Assembly: GCF_016406125.1 (NCBI RefSeq)
Contig: NZ_CP066339.1
Span: forward strand, 3,906,001 to 3,970,000
DNA: 64,000 nt
Source of the DNA: Alicyclobacillus sp. SO9
GTDB taxonomy: Bacteria > Bacillota > Bacilli > Alicyclobacillales > Alicyclobacillaceae
Direction of reading: 5' to 3'
Part shown: in pieces, positions 18,893 to 35,631 of the stretch
How the letters are laid out: the number at the start of each line of letters is the position of its first letter
How positions within the stretch are numbered: position 1 is the stretch's first letter
Translations under genes and position numbers: made by a program
Notes under the pieces: generated by a model
What the model was told of the DNA's origin: nothing
What the model saw: only the letters and a program-made list of their open reading frames with translations
Databases searched by the model: none

Positions 18893-18992
18893 CAACAAAA
18901 CTCCTTTGCGCAACGGTAGAGCTTGCAACCGGCTGTCTGCACATCATCTCATTACGAGCAAAGCTCTACGCATCTATAACTGAAGACTCTGC

Positions 18993-20144
18993 CTAATAGT
19001 TCCCCTTCGTGGTAATTTCATTGGCTTCAAAGTCTTTCACTGAGGCAGACTTTTCATAGAAATGAGGAACACTCTCCAGCAGCCCGCGTTTCGTGTAAAA
19101 GGGGTCGTCTGAGTCCAGCGGTAAATCTACCCGTATCCCTCTGGAAGCTGAGGCGTAAATCGCTGTAATAAGTTCCAATGTTCTTCGACCTTCCTCACCC
19201 GTCACCAATAACTCACTTTGTCCGGCAATAGCTGAAAGAACATTCTCAATTTGCCCTGTGTGCCCTTCGTAAGAAACCTCATCCTGGCTGTCGTAAGCCT
19301 CCTGTATCTCCGATTCCAATTGTGCATCTCGTTGTGGAAAGCCGTTCTCCTTTGCAATTGACCCGTACAAGTCCCAAGGTGCCGATAGTTTTCCCCGTTC
19401 GCACTGAAATACCAATTGCTGTTCCTGTCCGTGGTGAACAACTGAACTAGTAATCTGTCCCAAGGCGCCGGACTCAAAGCGTAAGAGCGCCATCGAAATA
19501 TCTTCGACTTCAGCATTTTGATGTGCAACATTGCTCATCATGGCATGGACCTCTGTTGGAAGTCCCATCATCCATTGCAAAGCATCAATGTGGTGAACTG
19601 CGTGGTTAAGAGTACATCCCCCGCCTTCGCTTTCCCAAGTCCCCCGCCACCACAAGTCATAATAACTCAGACCGCGCCACCAGTATGAATTTATCTGAGC
19701 ATGAAGAACTCTCCCTGCTGCTTGCTCATCCAAGAGCTTCTTTAGCTTCATCCAGGAAGACTGGAATCGATTTTGAGCCACAACTGATAAAAGTCTGCCG
19801 TTCTCCTGTGCCGCTGCAATCATCTTATCGCAATCCTCAAGGGATGCTGCCATCGGCTTCTCAACCAACACGTGCTTACCCGCCTCGAGACAAGCAATCG
19901 CAATTTCTGCATGTGTCGAGGGCGGTGTACAAATGGAAACTAAATCGATGGATCGGTCTTCAATTATCGTCTTGTAGTCATCTGACGCCATTGCATCCAG
20001 TTGATTTTCAGAGATGGATTTTTCAGCCTTTGCCAAGTCAATATCCGCAACCCTCTTAATTGTGCACTCCTGCGCAAAGGTAAGGTATGCTTGGAGATGC
20101 CGAGAGGAAATTGCCCCTGTGCCAATTACGGCAACGTTAATCAC
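18993..20144 (-). CDS. Gfo/Idh/MocA-family oxidoreductase
   Basis: A 383-residue oxidoreductase with the usual GTGAISSRH nucleotide loop, the EKPMA catalytic lysine motif and GGGCTLNHAVHHIDALQWMMG, which carries the conserved His. The chosen start is a GTG at 20144 with GGAGG 8 nt upstream; earlier in-frame ATGs (up to 20168) overlap that ribosome binding site. It is fourth in the operon, directly after two permeases, and precedes the second Gfo/Idh gene. Family members oxidise or epimerise sugars such as inositol, glucose or glucosides. The neighbouring aguA and uxuA point to a uronate- or xylo-oligosaccharide-related sugar. Confidence 0.9.
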   Translation of the reverse strand: MINVAVIGTGAISSRHLQAYLTFAQECTIKRVADIDLAKAEKSISENQLDAMASDDYKTIIEDRSIDLVSICTPPSTHAEIAIACLEAGKHVLVEKPMAASLEDCDKMIAAAQENGRLLSVVAQNRFQSSWMKLKKLLDEQAAGRVLHAQINSYWWRGLSYYDLWWRGTWESEGGGCTLNHAVHHIDALQWMMGLPTEVHAMMSNVAHQNAEVEDISMALLRFESGALGQITSSVVHHGQEQQLVFQCERGKLSAPWDLYGSIAKENGFPQRDAQLESEIQEAYDSQDEVSYEGHTGQIENVLSAIAGQSELLVTGEEGRRTLELITAIYASASRGIRVDLPLDSDDPFYTKRGLLESVPHFYEKSASVKDFEANEITTKGNY

Positions 20145-20171
20145 AATGCATTCCTCCATGTTCATCATTGA

Positions 20172-21017
20172 TTAGCCTTTAAGACCCTGAGTAGTGATAC
20201 CTTCGACAAGATACCGCTGGAAGAAGACAAAGATAAGAAAGACAGGAATCACTGACACGATGGACATCGCAAACAAATCGCCCCATTGTGAATTCCCTAG
20301 ATTATCGAGAAACATATTTAAACCAATGGGCACTGTAAACATGTGAGGGTTGCTGAGATAAATCATTTGCCCAAAGAAGTCGTTCCATGTCCAATAAAAT
20401 GCAAAGATAGATATGGTGATTAAAGCCGGCCGGGTAAGCGGCAGAATGACAGACACAAACAAGCGAAATGTGCCGCAGCCGTCAATGGTAGCCGCCTCAT
20501 CCAAATCCTTTGGTATACCCCTGATAAATTGAACCATTAGATAGATAAAAAATGCATTTACACCAAGGAAACTTGGCAGCGTTAATGGGATAAATGTGTT
20601 AATCAGACTCAACTTGTGGAAAATAATGTACTGTGGAATCAGCAATACCTGAATTGGCAGCATGAGAGTACCCAACATGAAACCAAACAGAAATCGTCGT
20701 AGTGTAAAATCCAATCTCGCAAAGGCAAAACCAGTGAGTGCCGAGCTAAACAGGGAGCCAATCACAACGATAAGCGAAATTTCAAATGAGTGGAGAAACA
20801 TCGGGCCGAAATTCATACCTGCTTTACCTGTTAATCCATCAATGTAGTGTGCGAAGGTCCACGTGGCGGGCCACAGACTGGAATTTGAAAAGATTTGACT
20901 GTCAGGTTTAAAGGAAGCAAAAAACATCCACAAAATCGGATAAATCATCAGAAAAGAAACAATGATTAGCACAACATGACGGAGTATTAACCGCACTCGA
21001 GCATTAGCAGTTCTCAT
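20172..21017 (-). CDS. Carbohydrate ABC transporter permease, MalG/AguG-like
   Basis: A 281-residue permease with six membrane segments and the EAA-type loop LDEAATIDGCGTFRLFVSVILPL. The C-terminus RYLVEGITTQGLKG is typical of MalG homologues. The ATG at 21017 is preferred, with GGTGG upstream; the open frame reaches 21050 but would overlap the previous gene. With the next two genes it resembles the aldotetraouronic acid importer found beside alpha-glucuronidase genes in Geobacillus. Confidence 0.93.
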   Translation of the reverse strand: MRTANARVRLILRHVVLIIVSFLMIYPILWMFFASFKPDSQIFSNSSLWPATWTFAHYIDGLTGKAGMNFGPMFLHSFEISLIVVIGSLFSSALTGFAFARLDFTLRRFLFGFMLGTLMLPIQVLLIPQYIIFHKLSLINTFIPLTLPSFLGVNAFFIYLMVQFIRGIPKDLDEAATIDGCGTFRLFVSVILPLTRPALITISIFAFYWTWNDFFGQMIYLSNPHMFTVPIGLNMFLDNLGNSQWGDLFAMSIVSVIPVFLIFVFFQRYLVEGITTQGLKG

Positions 21018-21028
21018 GACGCACCACC

Positions 21029-21955
21029 CTACACATCGTAGTTCACCCATAGTTTAGATGTCCAAAAAAGGACTCCTGCACAGAGTGCAATGATGAGAAG
21101 CAAGACAATCGACAGTGTTGCAGCGTAGCCCATGTGGAAGAACTGGAACCCTTGCTGGTACAAGTACAACACATAAAACAGTGTGGAGTTTAGAGGACCT
21201 CCGTCCGTAATGACAAAGACTTGCGTGAAGACCATAAATGACGATATGGTTCCCATCAGTAGATTGAAGAAAGTAATCGGAGATAACATCGGCAGCGTGA
21301 CACGAAAGAACCGCTGAATCGTATTTGCCCCGTCAATGGTGGCAGCTTCATAAAGATATCCTGGAATTTGCTTTATTCCAGCAAGAAAGATTACCATTTC
21401 GGACCCAAACTGCCAGACATTTAAGAGAACCAGCACAATGATGGCTGTAGCTGGATTTCCAAGCCAAATCGGTCCATGAATTCCAAAGAGATGAAGAAAA
21501 GAATTAATTGGACCATTTTGACCAAACAGTTTCCTCCATCCTATAGATGCTCCAACGCTGCCGGCAATCATGGATGGGAGATAGATTAATGCTCTGTAAA
21601 TTCCCATACCTCGAATCGGTTTGCTCACCAGTTGTGCCACCAGCAACGCTGCAACAAGCCGGACGGGAACGGATGCTATGACGTAAATAAATGTCACGCG
21701 AATCGCAATCCAAAAGTCCGAGTCCGTCAACAGTCTGTGGAAATTCGCCGCACCGGCAAACTTGGGCGAACTGAGAAGATTGTAATTTGTAAATGCTAAA
21801 TAGAATGTAAACAGCATGGAACCTGCCGTGAGAAACAGCATGCCAAACAGCCACGGGGACATAAAAACATAGGCTGGCCCATTTTGCTTTTTTTGCACTT
21901 TTAACCCTGGCCGTTTTACAGCATCTGTCTTTGCCACGTTCTGGGACAAGCCCAT
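21029..21955 (-). CDS. Carbohydrate ABC transporter permease, MalF/AguF-like
   Basis: A 308-residue permease with the EAA-type loop YLYEAATIDGANTIQRFFRVTLPM and about six membrane segments. AGGAGG lies 7 nt before the ATG at 21955; the longer frame to 22018 would run through the intercistronic hairpin and is rejected. It is separated from the next permease by 11 bp. Confidence 0.94.
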   Translation of the reverse strand: MGLSQNVAKTDAVKRPGLKVQKKQNGPAYVFMSPWLFGMLFLTAGSMLFTFYLAFTNYNLLSSPKFAGAANFHRLLTDSDFWIAIRVTFIYVIASVPVRLVAALLVAQLVSKPIRGMGIYRALIYLPSMIAGSVGASIGWRKLFGQNGPINSFLHLFGIHGPIWLGNPATAIIVLVLLNVWQFGSEMVIFLAGIKQIPGYLYEAATIDGANTIQRFFRVTLPMLSPITFFNLLMGTISSFMVFTQVFVITDGGPLNSTLFYVLYLYQQGFQFFHMGYAATLSIVLLLIIALCAGVLFWTSKLWVNYDV

Positions 21956-21975
21956 TTCAGAACCTCCTAAAAGGT

Positions 21976-22008
21976 GAGGAGCCTGCCAGTGCTTCACACA
22001 GGCTCCTC
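21976..22008. other. Intercistronic hairpin between binding protein and permease
   Basis: A 10-bp perfect stem GAGGAGCCTG with a 13-nt loop and no T-run. Such stems between binding protein and permease genes usually protect or raise the binding-protein message. Comparable ones lie at 51250-51280 and 59883-59916. Confidence 0.6.
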
Positions 22009-22044
22009 GCCAGTGCACTAGCTAGCGGGGTCGATTCGCTTCGA

Positions 22045-23349
22045 CTATTTCTGAGACAACGTTTGATTTGCTTGTTTGATAAATTCTTTCGCACCCTGAG
22101 CAGGTGTTAGTTGCCCAAACATCACCTTTTGTGCAATCGGCTTAAGGACTTTTGTGCTGATTGGCCCTGCATTCGGAGGATCAATCGGCAAAGGAGTCGA
22201 GATTTTCTCCACTTGTGCCATGAACTTGTCCTGAACTTTCGTTACTCCGCCAAGACTCGCTGCATCGGCCGATCTGTTCTTGTTATTCGCTGTTACCCCG
22301 CGGTTGTTCCCAAAGGTCTTCGAGACTTGCGGGTTGTTTTCAAGGAAATTAACTAGTTTCATTGCAGCGGCGGGGTGCTTAGACTTTGATGAAATTGTCC
22401 AGTACATAGCAGGATGGAGAATATACGGTTTACTTGACTGGTTCCAATCCGGGAACAAAACTCTCTGAATGGGTTTACCAAGTAGTTTTTGATAAGTAGG
22501 ACCTTCGCCGATAGGCATATAGGTAAATGCCGCTTTTTTCTTCACAAATGGACTGTCCTGAAGCTTTGAGTGGGTATAAGAGGAACTCTTTTGCGCTGAT
22601 GGTACCCCGCCCTTTTTCTCGAGATTCAACCAGTACTGAAACCAGTTCGTCAGAGTCTGCTGACTCATCCCAATTTTCCCGTTTTTAAACTCCCGCTCAC
22701 CGTGAGAAGTTGCCCAATAGGCGAGTTCTGCTCCCTGCCACACGTTGTTGGTAGACCCATATACGTTAGGAAGTTTGTTGTGAACCTGAATGAGAATATT
22801 GGCAAACTGATTCCAAGTATAATTCTTAGTCGGGTCGAAACTGATTCCTGCTTTTTTCAGCAGGGCAGGGTTGTAAATGTTGCAGAATGTATTAATAGCT
22901 ACCGGGACCGCATACAGTTTCCCATTCACTTTACCTAGGTCTGCAACACTTTTACTGAGACCTGAAGTATCAATAGAAGTGCTAGTGAGATTCTTGAGAG
23001 ACCCCTGGGAGATGTATTGACCTAAATAAGACGCATCCATCTGCATCACGTCAGGTAAATTTCCTCCCGCCGCTTCTGTAGCTAGTTTTTGCCAGTAGCC
23101 GCTCCATGATGCATAGGTCATAGTGACATGAATATTGGGATACTTCTTTTCAAAGAGTTGAACCGCTTTCTTCGTCATTTTCGTTCTTGTAGGCGTCGTC
23201 CACCAGGTAAAAGTAATATTCTCCGTTTTGCCGGAAGACCCAGATGTACCGTTCGTTCCTGAATTGCTGGTTCCGCAACCAGTCACCGTTACTGCCGCGG
23301 CCAAGCCCACACCGGCAATGGATAAAAGCGCTTTCTTGTTACGATTCAT
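22045..23349 (-). CDS. Sugar ABC transporter substrate-binding lipoprotein (aldouronate-type)
   Basis: A 434-residue family 1 binding protein with a lipoprotein signal peptide and lipobox VTGC, then a Ser/Gly/Asn-rich linker. AAAGGGGGC lies before the ATG at 23349; the longer frame to 23394 is not needed. It heads an operon of binding protein, two permeases and two Gfo/Idh oxidoreductases. The position between aguA and uxuA suggests aldouronic acids or another xylan-derived oligosaccharide as substrate. This is inference from context, not from binding residues. Confidence 0.92.
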   Translation of the reverse strand: MNRNKKALLSIAGVGLAAAVTVTGCGTSNSGTNGTSGSSGKTENITFTWWTTPTRTKMTKKAVQLFEKKYPNIHVTMTYASWSGYWQKLATEAAGGNLPDVMQMDASYLGQYISQGSLKNLTSTSIDTSGLSKSVADLGKVNGKLYAVPVAINTFCNIYNPALLKKAGISFDPTKNYTWNQFANILIQVHNKLPNVYGSTNNVWQGAELAYWATSHGEREFKNGKIGMSQQTLTNWFQYWLNLEKKGGVPSAQKSSSYTHSKLQDSPFVKKKAAFTYMPIGEGPTYQKLLGKPIQRVLFPDWNQSSKPYILHPAMYWTISSKSKHPAAAMKLVNFLENNPQVSKTFGNNRGVTANNKNRSADAASLGGVTKVQDKFMAQVEKISTPLPIDPPNAGPISTKVLKPIAQKVMFGQLTPAQGAKEFIKQANQTLSQK

Positions 23350-23401
23350 TGTACTGCCCCCTTTAATGAATGTGCTTGCATTGTCTTCAAACACCTAATT
23401 T

Positions 23402-23415
23402 ACATACTAGCATAC
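23402..23415. promoter_or_regulatory. Putative GntR operator at the aldouronate ABC operon
   Basis: ACATACTAGCATAC lies just downstream of a minus-strand promoter TTGGAC-N17-TATAGT (about 23416-23444). It matches the sites at 15561 and 25675. Confidence 0.55.
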
Positions 23416-23573
23416 TACTATATAACCATGGTGTAAACAGTCCAAGTCAAGATGACTTTAAAGAGTTCCGTGCTATCACATTGTAAGAAAGACGGCGCTT
23501 CCTTCGCTCTTACTTCAGTCTGTGCCTAGCGGCGATATCCGCTCCGGGATTGGGCCAACATGCATGAGTGATA

Positions 23574-24641
23574 TCATAGTTTTGCAAGAGCTTCCCACAT
23601 TCCGTTGAGGTACGTTGCTCCAAGTGCCCTGTCGTACAAGCCATACCCCGGTCTGGAATGCTCGCCCCATATCATTCGACCGTGATCGGGGCGAATGTGT
23701 CCCTGAAAGTCAATGTCACGATAAGCCTTCATAATTTCAAATAAGTCCAGCGACCCAGCTGAGGACAAATGAGACGTCTCGTGAAATGATTTTTCCCCAA
23801 CAAAGCTTAGATTGCGCACGTGGGCAAAGTGGATGCGTCCCATACCTCCAAAGTGTCGAATCATTCCCGGAATGTCATTGTCACGATTTGCTCCCAGGGA
23901 CCCGCTGCAAAGTGTCACGCCGTTGTACTCGCTGTCAACGAGGTTTACAATTTTATCAATACTGTCCTGAGAAGTTACAATTCTAGGAAGTCCGAATAGC
24001 GACCACGGTGGATCATCTGGGTGGATAGCCATCCTGACATCTGCTTCTTCACAGACTGGAATGATTTTCTCGAGAAAGTACTTGAGATTGGCCAGGAGTT
24101 GCTCTTCACTGACAGCTCTGTATTTTTCAAACAGAGCTTGTAGTTCCTTCAGTCGATAAGGCTCCCAACCAGGTAACTCAAAACCGTTAGATGCTAATTC
24201 CATTTCGTGAACCAATTGGTCTGGGCTGAGATTTTTTAGCTCTTCGTGATTGTAGTAAAGCACTTCAGAACCATCCGGCAACTTCCACGCCAAGTCGCTC
24301 CGCAGCCAATCAAACACTGGCATAAAGTTGTAACAGACAACCTTTACGCCCGCTTTCCCTAGGTTCCGGATAGATTCCTGGTAGTTTCGAATGTACAGGT
24401 CTCTGTCAGGCAAACCCAACTTGATATCCTCATGTACATTAACACTCTCAACCACCTCGAATTCCAGGTCAGCACTGTTAATCGAGTGCTTCATAGACAG
24501 AATTTTATCCAACGTCCAGATTTCCCCCACTGGAACGTCGTACAATGCCCCCACAATTCCTGTCACTCCGGGAATTTGGCGAATCTCTTCGAGTTGAATG
24601 CTATCGTTAACTTCACCAAACCAACGAAACGTCATCTTCAC
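23574..24641 (-). CDS. uxuA: Mannonate dehydratase
   Basis: A 355-residue D-mannonate dehydratase that makes 2-keto-3-deoxygluconate in the glucuronate branch. It carries family segments MTFRWFGE at the start, [24 protein letters not shown] and the C-terminal [13 protein letters not shown]; the histidines and aspartates in these bind the metal. The GTG at 24641 gives the usual MKMTFRW start, with AGGAG upstream; the frame is open to 24665. It stands alone between the ABC operon and the GntR gene, on the same strand as both. Fructuronate reductase is not next to it; the SDR at 31327-32097 probably fills that role. Confidence 0.95.
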
Positions 24642-24743
24642 TGATGTGTCATCTCCTGTCCCCATGTTCCAACTTTAGCAAATAACGTAAGCCACATAAC
24701 CATCTCAAGTACCTCAATGAACAGACACACGGTCTCCTGCACG

Positions 24744-24786
24744 ATGAATCCCGCTGCCGAGACGTCCTTTGATTCAGCATGCGGGA
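24744..24786. terminator. Hairpin after the GntR gene
   Basis: A 7-bp stem ATCCCGC / GCGGGAT with a long loop, between the GntR stop and uxuA. Weak evidence; there is no clear T-run. Confidence 0.35.
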
Positions 24787-24899
24787 TAGTCTGTAGAACA
24801 TGTGACACCCATAACGGCTATTTTGTTATATACATATATACTTCCCACACTGAAGTAGGAACCACACCCGTTTCAACTGTCCAGACGCAAAGCGAGAGC

Positions 24900-25607
24900 C
24901 TAGTGCTCAGCAAAATACGAAGGATAAGCCTGCTTCATCACTTTCATGTCGTCGTTTAAGCGGCGCAGATGTTTCGTCAGGATTGCGACCATCTGAGACT
25001 CATCCTTTTCTTTCAAAGCGTCGATGAGTTGTTGATGCTCGTCGGTTAGAGACCCTGCATTTTTCAGTTCTTTTAGGGTCAGGGATCTCACTCGATTGAG
25101 ATGGGACCGCATCTGCGTAACGATTGAAATGAGAGTGTTGTTTCCGGTTACCCCCATTAAAAATCTATGAAAGACCTCATCGAGGCGAAGGAACTCCTCG
25201 AAATCCCCCTCTTCTTCCACTTGCCTCTGCAACTCTAAATTCATTTCCAAATCCCTAAGAAGTCTCTTACAACGAGGCTCGTCACTGCTCCAGCTTCGGA
25301 CAACTCCCCGAATGGACCCTACCTCCAAAAGCTCTCGAACATACCGCGTGTCTTCCACTTTTCGTTCAGATATAAGAGCAATTTTCATTCCGCGTTGAGG
25401 AAGAACTTCAATTAACTCTTCGACAAGAAGAATGCGTACCGCCTCACGAACCGGTGTTCTGCTCATCTCCAGCATGCCCGCCAACTCAGATTCATAAATT
25501 GTCTGTCCCGGTTTCAGACGCAGTGTTAAAATAGAATCTCGAATAGATTCGTAGGCTTGCTCTGACAGGGTCTTTTTGCCGCTTGTGAACATCGTACTCA
25601 TTTGCAT
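24900..25607 (-). CDS. GntR-family regulator (FCD type)
   Basis: A 235-residue regulator of the FadR subfamily. A winged helix (SEQAYESIRDSILTLRLKPGQTI... MSRTPVREAV) precedes the all-helical FCD ligand domain with the metal/ligand residues in DEVFHRFL and the C-terminal DEHQQLIDAL. AAAGGA precedes the ATG. Its promoter (TTGCGG-N17-TACAAT on the minus strand) carries GAATACTTGTATAC in the spacer, the same motif as at aguA and the aldouronate operon. A uronate-pathway intermediate is the likely effector. Confidence 0.92.
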   Translation of the reverse strand: MQMSTMFTSGKKTLSEQAYESIRDSILTLRLKPGQTIYESELAGMLEMSRTPVREAVRILLVEELIEVLPQRGMKIALISERKVEDTRYVRELLEVGSIRGVVRSWSSDEPRCKRLLRDLEMNLELQRQVEEEGDFEEFLRLDEVFHRFLMGVTGNNTLISIVTQMRSHLNRVRSLTLKELKNAGSLTDEHQQLIDALKEKDESQMVAILTKHLRRLNDDMKVMKQAYPSYFAEH

Positions 25608-25674
25608 AAGGGCGTTTTCCTTTCGGTGTCAGATATGACCGATGGTTTGACTAGAGTAATAATTACATTGTACT

Positions 25675-25688
25675 GAATACTTGTATAC
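25675..25688. promoter_or_regulatory. Putative GntR auto-operator
   Basis: GAATACTTGTATAC lies between the -35 (TTGCGG) and -10 (TACAAT) of the GntR gene. It shares ATACTWGYATAY with sites at 15561 and 23402. Confidence 0.6.
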
Positions 25689-25829
25689 ACCGCAAGTCAT
25701 TCAGATACGGCCCAAAATATTGAACGAGTTTCGACAAACACTGTGACAATATCCCTCTATTCCGCAATTTTCGTTATTAGCATTGCTTTTCCGTATTGAA
25801 GGGCTGTACTATAGAAGAGAAAATTTTAC

Positions 25830-25925
25830 ACATACGGATAAAGGCACCCTTGGAGGAAACTCCAAGATACGCAAAGCCACGGAGCTACGGTACATCTTGT
25901 GCTATGCCCGCCGGGTTACCCATGT
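25830..25925 (+). promoter_or_regulatory. Cyclic di-GMP-I (GEMM-I) riboswitch aptamer
   Basis: The conserved skeleton is visible in order: AAAGGCA, a perfect 7-bp stem CTTGGAG/CTCCAAG closed by a GAAA tetraloop, ACGCAAAGCCACGG, CTACGG...CTATG as the second arm with a tetraloop receptor, and GCCGGGTTACC closing. ACAT (25830-25833) can pair with ATGT (25922-25925) as P1. The 3' side of P1 is part of the terminator's left arm. Ligand binding should therefore favour read-through (an ON switch). It controls the PaaK-like gene and the chemoreceptor. Confidence 0.87.
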
Positions 25926-25972
25926 TAGCCGCCAAGGCCGACCACGTCCTGAACATGGGTGTGGTTTTTTTT
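25918..25972 (+). terminator. Riboswitch-controlled intrinsic terminator
   Basis: Stem ACCCATGTT (25918-25926) with AACATGGGT (25952-25960), followed by GTGG and eight T's (25965-25972). The left arm shares bases with the 3' end of the c-di-GMP aptamer. Confidence 0.85.
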
Positions 25973-26006
25973 ATGCCAACAAAGTATCCAGCGGATGAGA
26001 GGAGAT

Positions 26007-26063
26007 ATGAAACTAGCAGATAAAGGAATACAGTTGCATGGAGGACTCTCATGCAGGTGGTAA
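26007..26063 (+). CDS. Possible 18-residue leader peptide
   Basis: ATG to TAA, with AGAGGAG 1-2 nt upstream. It lies after the riboswitch terminator and overlaps the next small frame by 13 nt. No known peptide is recognised; it may be chance. Confidence 0.25.
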   Translation: MKLADKGIQLHGGLSCRW

Positions 26064-26203
26064 CACACAATTCCACTGTGAGTTGTGGTAACAGCCCCAT
26101 TGCATCCAAAATGGGAGTACAACACAGGGTTCGGAGGATGATCTCGTGCATCATCAGTTTATTGAAGCTGCTTTACGGTCCCCTTTCTATCAGAAAAAAC
26201 TAA
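26051..26203 (+). CDS. Possible 50-residue small protein ahead of the PaaK-like gene
   Basis: An ATG with an ideal GGAGG (26040-26044) 6 nt upstream opens a 50-codon frame. It overlaps the first 58 nt of the PaaK-like gene in another frame. The predicted peptide ends in a hydrophobic stretch ([13 protein letters not shown]), but that part comes from the overlap. It could couple translation into the next gene or be spurious. Confidence 0.3.
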   Translation: MQVVTHNSTVSCGNSPIASKMGVQHRVRRMISCIISLLKLLYGPLSIRKN

Positions 26204-27345
26204 ATGGAATTTCACTGGATACATGGGCAGATATTCCGTTCACGGAAAAACACGAGTTGCGAGATGCAGACTCCTTCTCACTCCTCGGAACTGCAGTAGC
26301 CGACATCGCATCCTATCACGAGACCAGCGGCACTACCGGAAAACCTACTTCCAGTTGGTATAGTTTCCGAGATGTAGAGAATGAAAGCAAGCTGGTCAGC
26401 GAATCACACTTAGCTCTTCGGCGGGGAGACCTCTTGCTAAATCGGTTAACCTTCACTGTTGCCGTAGCCTCATTCATTGGCTTATGGGCTACACAGTATA
26501 CAAAATGCGGACACATCAGTTTAGCCAAGTCTGATGTATCGACACCTGTGAGAGTTCTTGACGTCATCAAGCGAACGCAACCAACTGTGTTAATGGAAAT
26601 CCCTTTTCAATTGGAAATCCTCGCTGGCGTCAAACAACGACTAGGATTCCAAACTCCGACTTCACTCAGGGCACTCCTTGCAGCCGGTGAACTGGTTTCT
26701 CCATCTCGACGCAAGTGGTTGCAGTCCCTTTGGAAGGTCCCCGTTTACAATCTTTTTGGCAGTACAGAGACAGGCGGTTTGGTAACATCGTGTCACCAAG
26801 GGCATTTTCACTTGGATAATCCTACTGTCTTATTCGAAGTCGTCGATGACGACGGCCAACCGCTTGGCTTTGAACAGAGAGGGCAATTGGTTCTCTCGAC
26901 GCTTAGACAAGGAATGCCGCTGCTTCGTTTCGCCACCCATGACATTGTTGAGTTAAAACCCGCTGAGATTTGTACCTGCGGAAACTCCCATCCGGTACTC
27001 ATCCATTATGGGAGACAGGAAGATGTAACTCGTATCGGAGGTCACTCCTGGACCCTGTACGACCTGCAAGAAATTGTATACAACTTACCGCGCATTCCAA
27101 TGGCGTGGAAATTCGTCCTCAACAAGGAGTCAGTAGCGTTCCTCTATCAGCCCTTCGTGGAATGTGAATCTCAGTCTGAACAAGATGTACTTAGCGCTGA
27201 ACTTAGTGCAAAACTGCAAGTTCCAGTGGCAGTTTCCTGTACAGAAATTGTGCCTCAAGCATCCTTGCTGCAACAATCCAACACAACGAAGTTTAAGTAT
27301 GTGTCCGAGGTAACGGATGAAGAGTTCGCAGACAAGGCAATTTAA
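26146..27345 (+). CDS. PaaK/CapK-like adenylate-forming enzyme
   Basis: A 399-residue member of the phenylacetate-CoA ligase-like adenylate-forming family. Visible motifs are the ATP loop SGTTGKPT (about 66-73), the adenine motif [20 protein letters not shown], a CTCG pair and GRQEDV near residues 293-298. The C-terminal small domain is present but divergent. It starts at GTG with GGAGG 8 nt upstream. It activates a carboxylic acid as an acyl-AMP, possibly then to CoA; the acid is unknown. It lies behind a c-di-GMP riboswitch and is followed 31 bp later by a chemoreceptor gene, so it is probably not a house-keeping aromatic degradation enzyme. Confidence 0.85.
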
Positions 27346-27376
27346 GTCACCCACTTTGAGACAATGGAGCGAGAAC

Positions 27377-28423
27377 ATGTTGACTTCTGGTAAAATACAC
27401 AAGACACGTACGGCTCTACGGACAATTCGCAAACAACTTGAGACAAACGAACCTTTCAAAGAGCTAGACCAGAATTTACCTTTAGCAGATGAAATCAATG
27501 CCCTGCTGGCAATCATGTTGACTGAGACAGGAGAAAATCAGTCGCGGGACGACTTGCCATTACAGACAGACCCTTTCATTAAAGGGGCTAGTTCATCACA
27601 GGCATCTCTGGAAAGACTAGCCTCAGGCATGCGCGGTTTGGCAGAAGCTGCAGACTCTCAAACGAATTTAGCCATGAAGAGTATTGCTGCCATCGAAGAA
27701 ATTTCAACGGCTGTGCGGCAAGTGGCACTCAGTGCCTCGACAGCCACCAAGATGGCAACACAAGCATCACAGACGGCTGCAAGTGGTACGGCAGAAGTCG
27801 AGACTGTTATGACGAAAATGCACTCTATTAGAGAGACAGTCGAAGACATCACCAATCAAGCCACCAGTCTACGGATGCGCTCAGATGAGATTGGGCAAAT
27901 CACAGAGGTCATTAAGAGTATTTCGTCTCAGACGAATTTGCTAAGCCTCAATGCGGCGATTGAAGCGGCCAGAGCCGGAGAACACGGAAAAGGCTTTGCC
28001 GTGGTCGCAGACGAGGTGAGAAAATTGGCCGATCAAGCCCAACAGTCCACGCAGCAAATTGGAGATGTTATCCAACGCATTCAACAGGACATTGAGAAGT
28101 CTATTCAGGCGACGCAGCAAGGATTGTCGGAGGTACAAGGCGGTATCCACAGCGTTGAACAGATGGGGAATTCATTTGACGCGATATCCACTTCGGTCCG
28201 CCATGTAACAACGCGGATTGAGGAGGTTTCTTCAGTGACGCAAGCAATTACGGCAGGATCTGAAGAAGCGTCTCATCTTGCTGACATTATGAAGCAAGGA
28301 CAGGAACACGGCACAAAAACGATTCGGGACCTAGCTGACATGTCTGAACGCCAACTTTCAGAGTTTACAGACCTAAATCGTCTTGTCACACAAGCTGCTA
28401 ACAGAGAAATCGCATGCAGATAA
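27377..28423 (+). CDS. Soluble methyl-accepting chemotaxis protein
   Basis: A 348-residue chemoreceptor signalling protein without membrane segments, HAMP or a recognised sensor domain. The hairpin tip that contacts CheA/CheW is clear: [20 protein letters not shown] and [15 protein letters not shown] around residues 181-220, flanked by long coiled-coil helices. The first ~90 residues are unassigned and may bind a partner. GGAG lies 7 nt before the ATG at 27377; an earlier ATG at 27317 would overlap the previous gene by 29 bp. It is co-transcribed with the PaaK-like gene under the c-di-GMP riboswitch. Confidence 0.9.
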
Positions 28424-28446
28424 TTGTTAGTAAGTTGCCTGTCTCA

Positions 28447-29205
28447 TTACAGGGACAACTCTCTGTACCTTCTCGGGGAATGATGTGTGACCCGTTTAAA
28501 ATTACGATTAAATGACCGCAAATTGTTGTAGCCGCAGTTCATGGCAATATCGGAAATGGACTGCTGGCTCGTTTTCAGCAGATAGCAAGCCTGTGAAATT
28601 CGATAGTTGATAATGTATTCAGTGAATGTCATGTTCGTCAGTTGGACAAACAGTTTTGACAAATACGCGTAATCATAGCGGAGGTGCTTTGCCACAGTTT
28701 TCAATGTGCAGTTATACATATAGTGTTTGTCTATAAAGAGCAAGGTTTTCTGTAATACCTTCGTTTTGGTTGAGTATTCAACCGGATGGAATGGGGTATG
28801 ACGAACGAGAGAACTACAAATGTCATACAAAAAACTCTTCTGTTTATAAATCGAGTCTAATCCGTCAAAGTCTAGCGGTTGACTTAGATGAAGCACATTA
28901 TTTTCTGGAACATACCCCTTATAATTCATAAAGAAATGGCCGATGAGTTCAGGAGAAAAAATGACGACTGTGATGTTGGAATGGCGAACTGTCCTGAATT
29001 CATGTAATTGGTTGCTAAAAATGAAAGCCAACTGATTGGCACAAAGGACATACTCCTTTTGGTCAATCGTGACGAATAACTCACCTTCGTTGACAATAAT
29101 CAGTTCAAAGGCGCGATGAAAGTGAAGATGAAAACTTTCATTAACTAGCGTGAAGTAAACAAAGGAATCCCTTTCTCGCATTCCGTGATGCTCAAAAAAA
29201 ACCAA
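28447..29205 (-). CDS. AraC-family transcriptional regulator
   Basis: A 252-residue regulator with an N-terminal cupin (LHFHRAFELIIVNEGEL) for sugar binding. The C-terminal pair of helix-turn-helices (LKTVAKHLRYDYAYLSKLF and ISDIAMNCGYNNLRSFNRNFKR) is intact. It starts at TTG with AGGAGG 7 nt upstream. It is divergent from the GH120 gene, with only 116 bp between starts, so it most likely activates that gene in response to xylose or xylo-oligosaccharides. Confidence 0.92.
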   Translation of the reverse strand: MVFFEHHGMRERDSFVYFTLVNESFHLHFHRAFELIIVNEGELFVTIDQKEYVLCANQLAFIFSNQLHEFRTVRHSNITVVIFSPELIGHFFMNYKGYVPENNVLHLSQPLDFDGLDSIYKQKSFLYDICSSLVRHTPFHPVEYSTKTKVLQKTLLFIDKHYMYNCTLKTVAKHLRYDYAYLSKLFVQLTNMTFTEYIINYRISQACYLLKTSQQSISDIAMNCGYNNLRSFNRNFKRVTHHSPRRYRELSL

Positions 29206-29321
29206 AACCTTCCCTCCTGTAAAAACACTAATTTTGTCTTAAATTATACTACGTTTTGGATAGAATCTACTCTCATAAATTCCTATGATGAGGACAGACT
29301 GGCTGCAAAGGAGGACGTAAA

Positions 29322-31244
29322 ATGGCTTTTGAATATCACGTGGCAAAAACTGGATCAGATCTGGGAGAGGGTACCGAACAAAATCCATTCTTAACAATAA
29401 ATAAGGCTGCCTCAGTAGCTGTGGCTGGAGACACCGTGATTGTGCACGAAGGCGAATACCGTGAATGGGTCAAGCCAAAGAATCCTGGGCTGAGCCATAC
29501 TAGAAGAATTACATATCAAGCAGCAGAACAAGAAAGCGTAGTTATTAAAGGTTCTGAACGCATTCAGAACTGGGAGCAAGTTGAAGGAAGCGTCTGGAGA
29601 GCGGTTATTCCAAACAAATTCTTCGGAGACTTTAACCCGTACGTTGAAGAAATATTTGGGGATTGGGTAGTCTACAATCCAGGCCGGCACCTAGGCGATG
29701 TCTATGTAAATGGAATGTCATTTTATGAGACCGAAACCCTCGAGCAGGTACAAAAACCCACCATAAAAACAGAACTACTGGACCATTGGACGAATCAGAC
29801 TGTTCCAGTCCACCATCCGGAACAAACCAAGTATGTATGGTTCACTGAGGTGGATGAGGACAACACAACGATTTATGCTAATTTTCACGACTATGACCCG
29901 AACCAGGAACTTGTTGAAATCAATGTGCGAAAGGCTTGCTTCTATCCTGAGGAAATCGGTATCAATTACATCACAGTAAAAGGTTTCGAAATGGCTCAAG
30001 CAGCGACAGCTTGGGCGCCGCCGACTGCAGATCAACCAGGTCTGCTGGGACCTCATTGGAGTAAAGGATGGGTCATCGAAGACAACGTGATCCACGATGC
30101 CAAATGCAGCGCCGTTAGTATCGGGAAAGAAGCCAGCACAGGGAACAATTATCGTTCAAAGCGAAAAGACAAGCCCGGATACCAGTATCAGTTGGAATCC
30201 GTCTTTCAGGCCAGAAAGATTGGCTGGAGTAAGGAAAAGATAGGGTCACACGTCATCCGTAATAATACAATCTACGATTGCGGTCAAAACGGGATTGTAG
30301 GCCATCTCGGTTGTGTATTCAGCGAGATCTACAACAACCATATTTATAACATCGCATTAAAGCGAGAGTTTTATGGGCATGAGATTGCAGGTATCAAGTT
30401 GCACGCCGCTATCGACGTACAAATCCATCATAACCGCATTCACGATTGTTCACTAGGAACATGGCTAGATTGGCAGACACAGGGAACGAGAGTAAGTAAA
30501 AATCTTTATTATCGAAACAATCGGGACTTGTTTGTTGAAGTGAGCAGCGGTCCATACTTGGTGGACAATAACATTCTGACTGCAGACTATGCATTGGATA
30601 ATCACGCTCAAGGCGGAGCATATGTGAACAACTTGATTCGTGGGAAGATGGTACATCGAAAAATGCTCGATCGCGCAACACCATATCATACACCCCACAG
30701 CACCGATGTAGCAGGATTTGCTGCGACCTATGGCGGTGACGATCGCTTTTATAACAACATCTTCATTGGCGGCGACGCACTAGACGACGTCGGCACCTCA
30801 CACTACAACGGGTACACAGCTTCACTGGAAGAATACATCGAAACTGTTCACCAAGAACCTGGTGACCATAACCGATTCCATAACGTGGAGCAACCTGTAT
30901 ATATTAACCACAATGCGTACTTCAATGGGGCCGAACCATTTGAAAAAGAGAGAGCTAATTATGTGGAGAAGCAATTTAATCCGCAGATGGCGATTGTAGA
31001 AGAAGACACCGCAGTATACCTTGTCATTGATCTCCCGGCAACTTTCGATGAAATGCTCGGTGAAGTCCAAACGACCGAAACGTTACAACGTGTTCGAATT
31101 GTGGATGCGGACTTTGAAAATCCAGACGGAAGCGAAATCGCTGTCGACACCGACCTCTTGGACGAAAAAAGAGGAGCAACAAGCGCATTCGGCCCCGTTA
31201 CTGCATTACAAAAAGGAAAAAACCGCGTGAAAATTTGGGGATAA
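29322..31244 (+). CDS. xylC: GH120 beta-xylosidase
   Basis: A 640-residue right-handed parallel beta-helix enzyme, closely similar along its length to Thermoanaerobacterium GH120 beta-xylosidase XylC as I remember it. Shared segments include YHVAKTGSD, LTINKAASVA, ITVKGFEMAQAATAWAPP and NNHIYNIALKREFYGHEIA. The catalytic pair is visible: Asp383 in TWLDW (nucleophile) and Glu406 in FVEVS (acid/base), matching Asp382/Glu405 of the studied enzyme. There is no signal peptide, so it works in the cytoplasm on imported xylo-oligosaccharides. AAAGGAGG precedes the ATG. Confidence 0.95.
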   Translation: MAFEYHVAKTGSDLGEGTEQNPFLTINKAASVAVAGDTVIVHEGEYREWVKPKNPGLSHTRRITYQAAEQESVVIKGSERIQNWEQVEGSVWRAVIPNKFFGDFNPYVEEIFGDWVVYNPGRHLGDVYVNGMSFYETETLEQVQKPTIKTELLDHWTNQTVPVHHPEQTKYVWFTEVDEDNTTIYANFHDYDPNQELVEINVRKACFYPEEIGINYITVKGFEMAQAATAWAPPTADQPGLLGPHWSKGWVIEDNVIHDAKCSAVSIGKEASTGNNYRSKRKDKPGYQYQLESVFQARKIGWSKEKIGSHVIRNNTIYDCGQNGIVGHLGCVFSEIYNNHIYNIALKREFYGHEIAGIKLHAAIDVQIHHNRIHDCSLGTWLDWQTQGTRVSKNLYYRNNRDLFVEVSSGPYLVDNNILTADYALDNHAQGGAYVNNLIRGKMVHRKMLDRATPYHTPHSTDVAGFAATYGGDDRFYNNIFIGGDALDDVGTSHYNGYTASLEEYIETVHQEPGDHNRFHNVEQPVYINHNAYFNGAEPFEKERANYVEKQFNPQMAIVEEDTAVYLVIDLPATFDEMLGEVQTTETLQRVRIVDADFENPDGSEIAVDTDLLDEKRGATSAFGPVTALQKGKNRVKIWG

Positions 31245-31260
31245 GTTCAACTGTACACTG

Positions 31261-31310
31261 AAGGGGCTGTCCCAAGGTCACGTTCGTAGGAGTGACTGGG
31301 ACAGCCCCTT
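31261..31310. terminator. Two-way terminator between GH120 gene and SDR
   Basis: A long hairpin: 14 bp AAGGGGCTGTCCCA paired with TGGGACAGCCCCTT, extended inside by GTCAC/GTGAC. It separates convergent genes. Confidence 0.8.
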
Positions 31311-31326
31311 GTCATTTGATTTCATG

Positions 31327-32097
31327 TCAGATTGTCATGGCGCCAAAGCCGCCGTCCACGCGAATCAATGCGCCAGTAACAAAACCAGACGCTGATTCAG
31401 ATGCCAACCACACTGCAGCTCCCTGTAGCTCTGATGCTTCCCCGAAGCGCATCATGGGTGTGTGCCGGAGAATGTCCTCAGTACGCTCGGGTGTCAAAAT
31501 CTTGCGGTTTTGCTCCGCTGGGAAAAACCCTGGAACAATCGCGTTCACACGAATTCTCTCTGAAGCAAATTCTCGGGCCAAGTATTGGGTGAGATTGTTA
31601 ATGGCCGCTTTCGAAGCTGAATACGTAACCACTTTTGAGAGAGGCGGGTCTGATGATGCCGAAGAAATGTTAATGACACTGCCTCCGCGGCCGCGTTGTA
31701 TCATGGCTGCACCGAAAACCTGGCATGCCAGCAAGACAGCTTTCAAATTCACATCCATAATATGGTCCCACTCTGTCTCGGTGATTTCAAAAAAGGGTGT
31801 TGTACTGTTGACGCCGGCACTATTCACCAGAATATCAGTTCCACCGCGCCAATCCACGATTTCTCGCTCTAACCTTATCAGTTCTTCCTTGTCCGTTGCC
31901 GAACTCAGAATAAAACTCTTGGCGTCGCCTCCTGTTTGTTCTATCCGGGCCTTAACAGCCTTCGCCTTCTCATTGTCTCGTCCCACAACAACGACAGATG
32001 CACCGTGTCCAGCTAATCCAACTGCAATAGCCGAACCAAGAGTGCTCGTACCACCAATCACAACAGCGTTTTTTTTAGTCAAGTCGAATAAATTCAT
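31327..32097 (-). CDS. SDR oxidoreductase, probable D-mannonate oxidoreductase
   Basis: A 256-residue SDR with cofactor loop GGTSTLGSA (15-23), NSAG, and catalytic Tyr159/Lys163 in YSASK. Its C-terminus, VDGGFGAMTI, is as seen in the SDR-type fructuronate reductases (UxuB/YjmF) of bacilli. GGAGAG precedes the ATG. It is 61 bp after the GH28 gene on the same strand. A reductase converting fructuronate to mannonate is needed for the UxaC-UxuA route, and no other candidate is next to uxuA. The role is inferred; a gluconate-5-dehydrogenase-like function is the alternative. Confidence 0.8.
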   Translation of the reverse strand: MNLFDLTKKNAVVIGGTSTLGSAIAVGLAGHGASVVVVGRDNEKAKAVKARIEQTGGDAKSFILSSATDKEELIRLEREIVDWRGGTDILVNSAGVNSTTPFFEITETEWDHIMDVNLKAVLLACQVFGAAMIQRGRGGSVINISSASSDPPLSKVVTYSASKAAINNLTQYLAREFASERIRVNAIVPGFFPAEQNRKILTPERTEDILRHTPMMRFGEASELQGAAVWLASESASGFVTGALIRVDGGFGAMTI

Positions 32098-32134
32098 GCA
32101 AGTCTCTCCATCCCTAATACTTAAATCTCATAAC

Positions 32135-32164
32135 CCTAGCTCTCATAGTCCTAGCTCTCATAGA
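32135..32164. repeat. 15-bp tandem duplication at the GH28 stop
   Basis: CCTAGCTCTCATAGT occurs twice in a row, with one mismatch at the end of the second copy. It overlaps the stop codon of the GH28 gene. Confidence 0.8.
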
Positions 32165-34482
32165 TGACTCCCATCTAAAAACTCGCTCATCCACCTCCCG
32201 ATTTCCGAGAAACCATTCAGCCATTTCATGTGTGTAGACTGCGAAAAAAGGAAATTAGTCTGTGGATGAGACATGGCATAGTTGTAGATGCGAGCCTCTT
32301 TCATTGTACCAACAAAGTGAGACATACCGCTCGTGTTGGCCCCAAGCACAATTGTCTTGGATACAGATGTCTTTGCAAGGGGGACTATCGCTGAAGCAAC
32401 CCTGCGACCATTAACATACAGTGCGTCCTTACCGGCCGGCGTCCAAATAGCAGTAACATGGCGCCAATGCCCCGGCTTATAACTATGAGTGCTCTCTAGG
32501 GCTACTCTTGTGGTTCCATCTGTAAGCACAAAGTCAATCTTTCCTTGTTTCGTGTACTGAAGGGAAAAACCGGCGTTCCCATTAGTCCCAGCCATAATGG
32601 TCCCGCCCGATTTACTGGGCCTGACCCAACTGGTGATTGAACCTTGGTTACTATTCAGTACGCCGGCAGGCAAAGATACTGTAGTGCTTCCATTGAAAAG
32701 CTTATCACCGTGCAGAAAACCACCAAACTCGCTGTCCGTGAACTGACTGGGTACATTTTTTCCCAAATCGTTTTCGACAGTACTCTGATAAAACCAAAAT
32801 CCGGGGTTCTTTTGATTGTCGATACTCACATTGTCCATTTGGACATCGGACACATTGGAGGCTTCAATGCCTTCTTGAGCATTTGTAATTTTGACGTTTT
32901 TGAAAATAAGGTGTTGAATGTTCATTTCTGTCAATCCACGGAAATACATCGCATGTTTATCGTCATTGTCGGTGATATCCTGGAACAGAATATTTTCGAT
33001 GCGCGGTGTTCCCGCATCAATTTTTCCAGTATAGGCTTCTGGGGCCCCGTTAGACGAGTATCTCTCATCAATATGCACCGCTGCATCTTGAATGTTGTAC
33101 ATGCTGATGTGCTCGAAGACTAAGTCTGAAATGGTACCGCCGCGTCCACGGAGCGACTTCATACGAATGCCTTCCTTGGTACCATTAAAGACGTCATCCC
33201 GCGCCAAAATGTTGTGAACGCCCCCAGACATCTCACTCCCGATTGTCACGCCGCCGTGTCCGTTTTTCATGAGGTTGTTTCGAATGATAATCCCTGAAGC
33301 TGGAATTCCAATTTTACGTCCCTGTGCATCCTTACCAGACTTAATGGCAATGTCATCATCACCGACGTTAAACGTGTTGTTGATAATCTTCATCCCCGTT
33401 ACGGAATCAGGGTCTACTCCGTCGGTGTTATCTGAAGTCGGCGGATTTTCGATATCCAAGTCTGCGAGAGTGACATTTTGTGAGTAAAGCGGATGAATGG
33501 TCCAGGATGGTGAATTTTGAACTGTAACACCTTGAATGAGTACGTTTTTGGAATGAGTAAATTCAATATCTCCGGGCCGGGCATAGGGAATTCCTTTGCT
33601 TAAATCGACCGAGCTTTGTGGTACCAGGTTCACGGCGGGATTCGTCGTAGGTTCTTTGTAATTTGGTGCCCCGTTCTTGCCCCTGGCCCACCAACTTCCA
33701 TATGTCTTCCCGCTGTTGTCCGTGATAGCGGTCTCACCGTTTCCATCAATGGTCCCCTGGCCAGTGATGGTCACGTTTTTTACGTTTTTGCCGTACAGGA
33801 GGCTCTGGTACCTGTACATCTCTATTCCTTCCCATCTGCTCCAAACTGGCTTGTATTGGTCAATGTTACTGCTGCCAAGAAGTTTGGCCCCTTTGGCCAG
33901 ATCTAAGGTCATGTCACTTTTGAGGGTCAAGGGCGCTGTCAGGTAAGTACCAGCAGGAATGTACACCGTACCTCCCGCAGGGACTGCATCTATAGCCTTC
34001 TGAAGAGCAGCCGTGTCGTCTGTCGTGCCATTTCCTGCAGTTCCAAAGGTTTGTACGTTCAATGTTACGCCCCTAGGTTTAGTAGAAACCACCAAAGACC
34101 TACTTGGACGTGACTTGTTACCCAACGTGTCTTTTGCAACTACAGTAAACGTATATTTATGATTGGGTTGCAAGCCCTGCACAGTAAAATTCGATTTACT
34201 AACTGTGCCAATTAATGAACCGTTCTGATAGACATCATAGGACACACCCGATTTGTAAACCGGATTCCAAATCAAATCAATGAGAGAGGAAGTCACAGCG
34301 TAGGTTTGGAGACTTGCCGGCATCTGCAAAGGCGCATTTGACCTATGGTTCGCAATACTTTGCTGTGTCGTTTGAGCAAAACCAGTTGCCGGAAAACCTG
34401 CCATAACGGTTAACCCGCTGCTAACTGCGAGAACGGAGACTACAGAGAAACGTCTCTTCCAGTGACTATTGCTTCCTTTCAT
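32158..34482 (-). CDS. Secreted GH28 polygalacturonase-like protein with Fn3 and LamG domains
   Basis: A 774-residue exported protein. A signal peptide (KRRF then a hydrophobic core ending ATGFAQ) is followed by a fibronectin III domain (about 60-145). A GH28 beta-helix comes next, with NTDGVDPDS (~350), GDDDIAIKSG (~372), HGGVTIGSEMSGG (~408) and GIRMKS (~440), then a LamG/ConA-like C-terminal domain from about 595. The catalytic aspartates and the histidine are present. GGAGG lies before the ATG at 34482; the frame is open to 34581. It likely cuts galacturonan outside the cell and supplies the uronate genes here. It is the only clearly secreted hydrolase in the window. Confidence 0.92.
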   Translation of the reverse strand: MKGSNSHWKRRFSVVSVLAVSSGLTVMAGFPATGFAQTTQQSIANHRSNAPLQMPASLQTYAVTSSLIDLIWNPVYKSGVSYDVYQNGSLIGTVSKSNFTVQGLQPNHKYTFTVVAKDTLGNKSRPSRSLVVSTKPRGVTLNVQTFGTAGNGTTDDTAALQKAIDAVPAGGTVYIPAGTYLTAPLTLKSDMTLDLAKGAKLLGSSNIDQYKPVWSRWEGIEMYRYQSLLYGKNVKNVTITGQGTIDGNGETAITDNSGKTYGSWWARGKNGAPNYKEPTTNPAVNLVPQSSVDLSKGIPYARPGDIEFTHSKNVLIQGVTVQNSPSWTIHPLYSQNVTLADLDIENPPTSDNTDGVDPDSVTGMKIINNTFNVGDDDIAIKSGKDAQGRKIGIPASGIIIRNNLMKNGHGGVTIGSEMSGGVHNILARDDVFNGTKEGIRMKSLRGRGGTISDLVFEHISMYNIQDAAVHIDERYSSNGAPEAYTGKIDAGTPRIENILFQDITDNDDKHAMYFRGLTEMNIQHLIFKNVKITNAQEGIEASNVSDVQMDNVSIDNQKNPGFWFYQSTVENDLGKNVPSQFTDSEFGGFLHGDKLFNGSTTVSLPAGVLNSNQGSITSWVRPSKSGGTIMAGTNGNAGFSLQYTKQGKIDFVLTDGTTRVALESTHSYKPGHWRHVTAIWTPAGKDALYVNGRRVASAIVPLAKTSVSKTIVLGANTSGMSHFVGTMKEARIYNYAMSHPQTNFLFSQSTHMKWLNGFSEIGRWMSEFLDGSHL

Positions 34483-34815
34483 GAACTGACTCCTCCAATC
34501 AATTTTTGTAGTTACTCGGTAATTCAGATAACAATTCGTAAGCGCATACATTGTATTTCGGGTTTCTTGACTCTGCACCATGCCTCCTCATCCAAGTCTG
34601 TGATGTATAGTGACTGATTATGATGACTAATTATCACAAACCATCATAACACCACATTATACTTTCGACCAAATGCGTCAATATATGACGCAGAATTTCA
34701 AGTCTCATTTCACCAAACATAAAAAAGACCACTTTAACAAGTGGTTTCACATGACATCGTGTTGAACTTCTGATTAGCAGCAGACCACGAAGAACATGGT
34801 ATTCCATTGCCACTC
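34483..34815. other. Intergenic region between DeoR gene and GH28 gene
   Basis: Holds the DeoR terminator (34728-34745) and presumably the GH28 promoter. TGACTGATTATGATGACTAATTATC near 34610-34640 is AT-rich with repeated TGA(C/T)TATs, but no clear operator is defined. Confidence 0.5.
34721..34745 (-). terminator. Terminator after DeoR gene
   Basis: Stem ACCACTT / AAGTGGT with a 4-nt loop, followed on the minus strand by CTTTTTT. Confidence 0.75.
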
Positions 34816-35577
34816 CTAATCGACAAAGATAAATGTAGCACCCGTTGCCTCGATGTCGGATAACGTAGAACTCTGTTGAACTCGATTGGTAATAATGGCA
34901 GTGACATCACCTAAACCAGCATATGTCACCAATGCGGCCCGGCCAAGCTTACTTGAATCGGTCACACAATAGACTTTTTGACCGACAGCAATCATTTTGC
35001 GCTTCAGTTCAACTTCGGCCATAGAAGAAGTGGTCAGTCCCTTTTGTTTGCTGACTCCCCCGCTCCCCAGAAAAACGTAATCAACATTGTAACGCCCTAT
35101 ATCATCCTCGCATTCAGGTCCAACCAACGTGTAGCTCCCCTTTTGCAAGGTTCCTCCCAACATGATGAGATTGACTAAAGGAGACGATGACAGTTCCATA
35201 GCAATGCTTAATTCATTCGTAATAACGGTGACGTTCTTGTTCTGAAACTGCCGGGCGATTTCGAGTGTCGTCGAACCACTGTCCAATATGACGGAGCTTC
35301 CGGCCGGAACCATCGACGCTGCAGCTCTAGCCACTAACCGTTTTGCTTCGACTTGCTCCGTGGTTCTCTGGTGAATTGGGGGCACCGCATGGACAACGTT
35401 GTCAAGAACCGCTCCGCCATGGGTTCTGCGCAACAATCCGTCCATTTCAAGTTTGCGCAAATCCCGACGGATTGTTTCCTCTGACACTTGGAAAGAAGTC
35501 GTCAAGTCTCGAATTCGCACAGACTTTTGCTGTTTTAATAACTCCATTAATTTTTGTTGCCGAACTTCGCCTAACAT
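34816..35577 (-). CDS. DeoR-family transcriptional regulator
   Basis: A 253-residue DeoR/GlpR-type regulator with helix-turn-helix VRIRDLTTSFQVSEETIRRDL, THGGAV, and the effector domain LDSGSTTLEIARQ and GLTTSSMAEVELK. It is a close paralogue of the DeoR at 44050-44814: both begin MLGEVRQQK and share most motifs. It follows the FGGY kinase by 54 bp and is probably co-transcribed with it. Its effector is likely the phosphorylated product of that kinase or of uronate catabolism. Confidence 0.92.
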   Translation of the reverse strand: MLGEVRQQKLMELLKQQKSVRIRDLTTSFQVSEETIRRDLRKLEMDGLLRRTHGGAVLDNVVHAVPPIHQRTTEQVEAKRLVARAAASMVPAGSSVILDSGSTTLEIARQFQNKNVTVITNELSIAMELSSSPLVNLIMLGGTLQKGSYTLVGPECEDDIGRYNVDYVFLGSGGVSKQKGLTTSSMAEVELKRKMIAVGQKVYCVTDSSKLGRAALVTYAGLGDVTAIITNRVQQSSTLSDIEATGATFIFVD

Positions 35578-35631
35578 ATCGCCATCCCCAATCAGTGTCT
35601 ACGCAACAATAGCATATACGACTCTCTCTAG

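Follow-up and report, generated by a model that had tools for sequence, protein, structure and literature searches.

What does a chemoreceptor respond to when it carries no recognizable sensor domain? The stimulus of such receptors is hard to tell, and a co-inherited enzyme makes the question directly testable. This situation occurs in a 64,000-nucleotide stretch of the Alicyclobacillus sp. SO9 chromosome (hereafter the window; its genome is referred to as G000), where a c-di-GMP-I riboswitch precedes a gene for a PaaK-like adenylate-forming ligase and a gene for a membrane-free chemoreceptor (MCP). Our preferred reading, to which we give an even chance, is an intracellular chemosensory unit of two proteins that is controlled by c-di-GMP: the enzyme would act as the cytosolic sensor, and the MCP would deliver the output.

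Organization of the locus and its leader

The open reading frames and Kyte-Doolittle profiles agree with a preliminary description of this DNA, made from the letters only, in which a GTG-started PaaK-like gene is followed 31 bp later by a membrane-free MCP; its coordinates were right. A GGAGG ribosome site precedes the GTG start, and the 31 bp separate the PaaK-like stop codon from the MCP start (ATG at 27377), with GGAG upstream of the latter; an in-frame ATG at 27317 is a possible alternative MCP start. Between switch and enzyme lies a 50-aa ORF with two cysteines that the preliminary description had missed and whose coding status is putative. No counterpart of this ORF was seen in the one relative inspected (G477). 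A longer, frameshifted PaaK-like start running through this ORF was rejected, since five aligned relatives begin at about the same place.

Features of the locus (positions in the window)
Feature	Position	Strand	Details
c-di-GMP-I (GEMM-I) riboswitch aptamer	25833..25923	+	cmscan RF01051 53.6 bits, gathering 35
Antiterminator-like hairpin	25917..25961	+	25917-25926 pairs with 25952-25961; 5' arm takes in the aptamer 3' end
Intrinsic terminator	25940..25972	+	25940-25949 pairs with 25957-25966, plus U run
Small ORF, coding status putative	26051..26203	+	50 aa; GGAGG site; runs into the PaaK-like start
PaaK-like adenylate-forming ligase gene	26146..27345	+	GTG start, 399 aa, PF00501 match
Membrane-free chemoreceptor (MCP) gene	27377..28423	+	ATG start, 348 aa, PF00015 151.3 bits

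The surroundings of the pair (17816-37266) contain sugar-acid and plant-polysaccharide genes, which encode a UxuA-type mannonate dehydratase, GntR/FCD and AraC regulators, a solute-binding protein, GH120-insertion and GH28 proteins, and an FGGY kinase.

A GEMM-I aptamer upstream of the pair had been proposed, and the covariance search confirmed it (RF01051, 53.6 against 35 bits; E 1.1e-7 for the window); it is the 19th of the 20 c-di-GMP-I matches listed genome-wide. At least 20 such switches are present in the 5.29-Mb genome (150 of 474 candidates scored), and two aptamers above the gathering score lie in the window. The second of these (56238-56324; L006) is stronger at 72.6 bits and precedes an MCP with 4HB and HAMP domains. 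Four of the ten listed MCPs of this genome are located within 4 kb downstream of a listed c-di-GMP-I switch on the same strand. The listed switches (L001-L020) precede, among others, genes for GGDEF proteins (several with PAS), a TadE-like protein, CheX, a fatty acid desaturase, a FapA-like protein, and MCPs, some of these by frame reading only. One switch (L003) precedes a cheX gene followed by CheY-like and CheA-like genes, as judged by reading of frames, and the single long frame with a CheW domain in this genome (803 aa) is located there as well.

Two mutually exclusive hairpins can form in the leader. The hairpin that shares bases with the aptamer stops a few bases short of the U run, whereas the hairpin that abuts the U run (25940-25949/25957-25966) has no bases in common with the aptamer. 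The earlier view of a terminator overlapping the aptamer 3' side therefore holds in that an overlapping hairpin exists, but a different hairpin, the one at the U run, is the terminator. Folding probabilities were obtained with ViennaRNA for RNAs with 3' ends at 25960, 25963, 25966, 25970, 25973, and 25985, either free or with the aptamer held, in a model that holds or blocks bases and leaves out the ligand energy. At these six ends, the antiterminator-like hairpin has probabilities of 0.85, 0.90, 0.24, 0.67, 0.79, and 0.54 in the free RNA and of 0.21, 0.28, 0, 0, 0, and 0 with the aptamer held. The corresponding values for the terminator are 0.00, 0.00, 0.60, 0.19, 0.08, and 0.35 in the free RNA and 0.02, 0.22, 0.86, 0.87, 0.87, and 0.88 with the aptamer held. 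Because the aptamer-end hairpin competes with the U-run terminator, the ligand is predicted to favor termination, and the folding models lean toward an OFF switch rather than the ON switch suggested before. An ON switch as the default was set aside, since the aptamer-end hairpin blocks the U-run terminator in the folding model.

In this leader, the aptamer end finds an exact complement of at most eight bases, a length equalled in 6 of 2000 shuffles. In a relative with the same riboswitch (G1065), an exact nine-base complement overlies the terminator (as long in 5/2000 shuffles), and when the aptamer end is blocked, the terminator probability climbs from 0.11 to 0.98 for one RNA length; in longer RNAs, the terminator prevails regardless of the aptamer end (0.87-0.90 against 1.00). 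The models for G1065 thus lean in the same OFF sense. For G477, the complement in the shuffle test is only four bases long (equalled by 1611/2000 shuffles), a six-base complement that starts slightly further upstream in the aptamer end falls outside that test, and the direction is unclear in the folding models.

Several points run counter to an OFF switch. Even without ligand, the terminator is part of the minimum-energy fold of 25826-25985, and a terminator finder chose the aptamer-overlapping hairpin as the terminator of this leader, matching the preliminary view. Moreover, the Bc1 switch of the Bacillus cereus group, which resembles our locus as a c-di-GMP-I switch before an MCP gene (mcpE) in Bacilli, is reported to turn on in a B. 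subtilis reporter, according to the available part of that paper (PMC11218506). Unlike our locus, Bc1 has two terminators, its downstream genes are described there as unresponsive to c-di-GMP in the cell, and the available text mentions no adenylating enzyme (PMC11218506). As 8 of the 20 listed switches of G000 lack a terminator-like hairpin within 170 nt in the scan, no genome-wide switch sign is claimed.

An adenylate-forming ligase near ClxA and NatL2

The enzyme is nearer to the ClxA (closoxazole) and NatL2 (nataxazole) ligases than to phenylacetate-CoA ligase. Identity with the latter is disfavored by a TIGR02155 (PaaK) score of 78.1 bits, below the equivalog cut-off of 646.3 bits. The top PDB sequence matches are ClxA (the best), NatL2, and AjiA1, and the phmmer alignments span residues 6-387 with ClxA and 6-398 with NatL2, which is near full length. 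The AlphaFold model (mean pLDDT 90.1 from 32 sequences) is also closest to ClxA among solved structures (VIA-align Z 40.6 over 367 residues, 2.5 Å), with PaaK1 in second place at Z 38.7, so near that the fold alone cannot separate a ClxA type from a PaaK type. According to the available parts of two papers, ClxA and NatL2 activate a hydroxybenzoate-type acid as its adenylate and then join it, without CoA, to a second molecule; a lysine in a C-terminal extension, contributed by the other subunit, completes their active sites (PMC7204872, PMC12519233).

Residues of this chemistry are retained in the nine members of the PaaK-like clade described below. K35, R39, the YHE motif, S61, T207, E208, D266, and K382 are kept in all nine. 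The AMP-contact residues T207 and D266 are among these, and the third, H287, is present in all six members aligned there; in our reading of the alignment, the three correspond to ClxA T222, D281, and H301. By the same kind of reading, K382 aligns with the C-terminal-extension lysine (ClxA K393, NatL2 K418) and is the putative catalytic lysine. The structural match to ClxA ends at residue 378, short of K382, and model quality drops over the last 30 residues (block pLDDT 67, 81, and 56). ClxA K140, the proposed lysine for the acceptor carboxylate, likewise aligns in our reading with K128, which is invariant in six aligned members.

The hydroxybenzoate donor contacts are not matched, and in this the enzyme differs from both characterized ligases: NatL2 E235 corresponds to L203 and ClxA N226 to G211, and all nine clade members have L or F at position 203. 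ClxA and NatL2 themselves differ at these positions, and the mismatch appears to bear on the substrate more than on membership. The guesses of 3-hydroxyanthranilate or 3-amino-4-hydroxybenzoate as substrate were dropped because of these differing contacts. Further differences are that the zinc ligands of NatL2 are kept in only five of the nine clade members and lost in four, that the window enzyme is paired with an MCP, and that no amidohydrolase occurs among the nearby window proteins scanned. With its near full-length match, C-terminal lysine, and AMP contacts, the enzyme is a candidate ClxA/NatL2-type ligase, for which CoA-free coupling is predicted. The acyl-CoA product considered in the preliminary description is doubtful, given that the closest characterized relatives make amides or esters from adenylates.

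Conservation and joint inheritance of the pair

At a threshold of E ≤ 1e-60, ten of the 398 genomes searched within the class had a PaaK match. The proteins of G339, G235, and G323 share 44-46% identity with the window enzyme, and an MCP gene adjoins the ligase gene in two of them. Among 150 relatives of G339, four had a match (including G477 and G513), and 8 of 377 genomes of the order had one, with G919, G1065, and G1096 as new members. Further samples gave 7/397, 4/101, 1/398 (the phylum, with G000 as the sole match), and 1/2 matches without a new clade member; the samples overlap and the counts are not additive. The pair is rare, as no clade member besides G000 was found among 150 sampled relatives of this genome.

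The MCP is the next gene in eight of the nine PaaK-like clade members. The ligase gene comes first in G000 and G477, and the MCP gene comes first in G339, G323, G513, G919, G1096, and G1065. The ninth member (G235) is a plasmid copy that matches NZ_CP116888.1 of Aneurinibacillus sp. Ricciae_BoGa-3; no MCP is present in the 13 kb fetched, and the nearest one listed on this replicon is more than 20 kb away. In the control, which covered up to 6 kb on each side of 42 other PaaK-like loci, no MCP was found within 3 kb, although the contigs of four of them (L063, L066, L075, and L087) stop less than 3 kb away on one side; one locus (L079) has an MCP at 4.7 kb. Six genomes contain 7 to 23 MCP matches each. 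The genes around the pair differ between genomes, as judged by eye.

Three of the eight PaaK-MCP operons (G000, G477, and G1065) are immediately preceded by a c-di-GMP-I aptamer, and no such upstream match was found for the pairs of G339, G323, G513, G919, and G1096. The aptamer of G477 (81.3 bits) is located about 158 nt before the PaaK-like gene, and that of G1065 (83.8 bits) about 140 nt before the MCP gene; G477 has at least five c-di-GMP-I switches genome-wide (150 of 349 candidates scored). The switch is thus a recurrent but non-obligatory component of these operons. Had the pair been confined to this strain, the idea of a unit would have suffered; it is present elsewhere, and in two other genomes it likewise follows a c-di-GMP-I riboswitch. 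The order riboswitch-PaaK-MCP recurs in G477, but in G1065 the riboswitch is followed by the MCP and then by the PaaK-like gene.

Phylogenetic analysis placed the nine PaaK-like proteins in one clade apart from 31 others (SH-aLRT 100). This tree took 31 of the 42 control loci; L064, L070, L071, L075, L076, L078, L080, L085, L089, L090, and L091 were outside it, as was G151 (L098). The place of G235 within the clade is weak, and the long-branch warning for this tree names it. The eight linked MCPs likewise fall into a single clade that excludes 23 other MCPs from six genomes (ultrafast bootstrap 98, SH-aLRT 95), a comparison set derived from 30 best-match loci, of which 28 gave ORFs with the motif (all except L121 and L146), minus five copies of linked MCPs. 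When both trees are pruned to the eight pairs, all five splits are common to them. Some of these forks are weakly supported: in the PaaK tree, the value is 16 for the fork joining G1065 to the last three members and 87 for the separation of G477 from G000, which has 89/77 in the MCP tree. In both trees, G323 groups with G339, which is labelled as a member of another family, and away from its genus-mate G1065, suggesting that the PaaK-like and MCP genes travelled together.

These patterns bear on a simpler explanation, in which the two genes share one operon and are useful in the same state with no mechanical coupling of their products. The reversed gene order between lineages and the one clade member without an adjacent MCP (G235) are in its favor. 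However, the adjacency in eight of nine members, the private MCP clade, the matching trees, and the differing surroundings of the pair speak against it, and shared expression as the whole explanation seems distinctly unlikely to us. The adjacency also supports the earlier proposal that enzyme and receptor form one unit. The matching trees would also suit a unit of another kind, in which the enzyme modifies the receptor, its adenylate acylating side chains, or the MCP scaffolds the enzyme in the array. The release of adenylate from the active site of a ClxA variant is discussed as possible in the available part of one paper (PMC12519233), which is consistent with the former. We regard either version as very unlikely.

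A receptor without a known sensor domain and its proposed partner

The window MCP has a clear signaling domain (PF00015, 151.3 bits), the tip of which aligns with linked MCPs of relatives. Its maximum 19-residue Kyte-Doolittle mean is 0.94, which corresponds to no hydrophobic segment, whereas the other seven linked MCPs have strong N-terminal hydrophobic segments (maxima of 2.26 to 3.10) that resemble a membrane hairpin of two helices joined by a short loop. In the Pfam scan, all eight linked MCPs have the signaling domain and none has a HAMP or known sensor (ligand-binding) domain; the few families below the cut-off resemble coiled-coil noise. The window MCP therefore belongs, as a soluble protein, to a receptor group that has no known sensor. 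Its structure predicted alone is of low confidence (pLDDT 69, pTM 0.39) and was used only as an indication that the protein is all helical.

One alternative is that the MCP alone senses a diffusible product of the ligase, be it an amide, an ester, or an adenylate. The adenylation residues kept in all nine clade members and the invariant K128 would fit such a role. Nevertheless, the lack of a known ligand-binding domain in all eight linked MCPs and of any recurrent biosynthetic gene beside the pair (by eye) argues against product sensing, which we consider unlikely.

In the preferred reading of a two-protein unit, the enzyme would stand in for the missing ligand-binding domain of the MCP. The ligase would bind a carboxylic acid and ATP and form an acyl-adenylate, as ClxA and NatL2 do. 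Its state (empty, loaded, or turning over) would be read by the partner MCP via direct contact and relayed to CheA/CheW; genes with CheW domains were found in all six genomes tested, including G000. Weighing against this reading are the G235 enzyme without an MCP beside it, the five operons with no c-di-GMP-I match, the rarity of the pair, the zinc ligands lost in four clade members, and the first ~90 residues of the window MCP, which could bind a ligand themselves. If the folding models are right, c-di-GMP on the leader would free the terminator, and the unit would be made at low c-di-GMP, in motile cells. More tentatively, with a somewhat less than even chance, the pairs may represent a class of bipartite receptors in Bacilli, in which the ligase is a soluble carboxylic acid/ATP sensor that docks onto a dedicated sensor-less MCP and which is c-di-GMP-gated in some lineages. 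We are not aware of any described chemoreceptor to which an adenylating ligase docks. If the enzyme is the sensor, a metabolic ligase can become a chemotactic input in bacteria, and c-di-GMP can decide whether that input exists.

Parts of this arrangement are already known, namely a c-di-GMP-I switch before an MCP gene and sensing via the activity of another protein. The closest likeness for the latter is the transporter-kinase co-sensing of DctA/DcuS, in which an enzyme or transporter serves as the sensor for a signaling protein; the available part of that source mentions no adenylate-forming ligase coupled to a chemoreceptor (PMC6978683). The pairing of a PaaK-like ligase with a chemoreceptor was not found described in the open-access literature, to which the search was confined (subscription papers were outside its scope), and the same literature yielded no paper for 9S3L/9S45 or for this switch in Alicyclobacillus. 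One paper contains the terms PaaK, MCP, and riboswitch, and in its available part paaK is named in an iorAB operon and is not paired with an MCP (PMC2700814).

Apart from the MCP-linked clade, many Bacilli loci among L051-L078 (e.g., L051, L053, and L063), as well as L178, have two tandem PaaK-like ligases. In the four loci read, a DAHP-synthase-like gene follows the tandem ligases by frame reading, possibly as part of a cluster for an aromatic-acid product.
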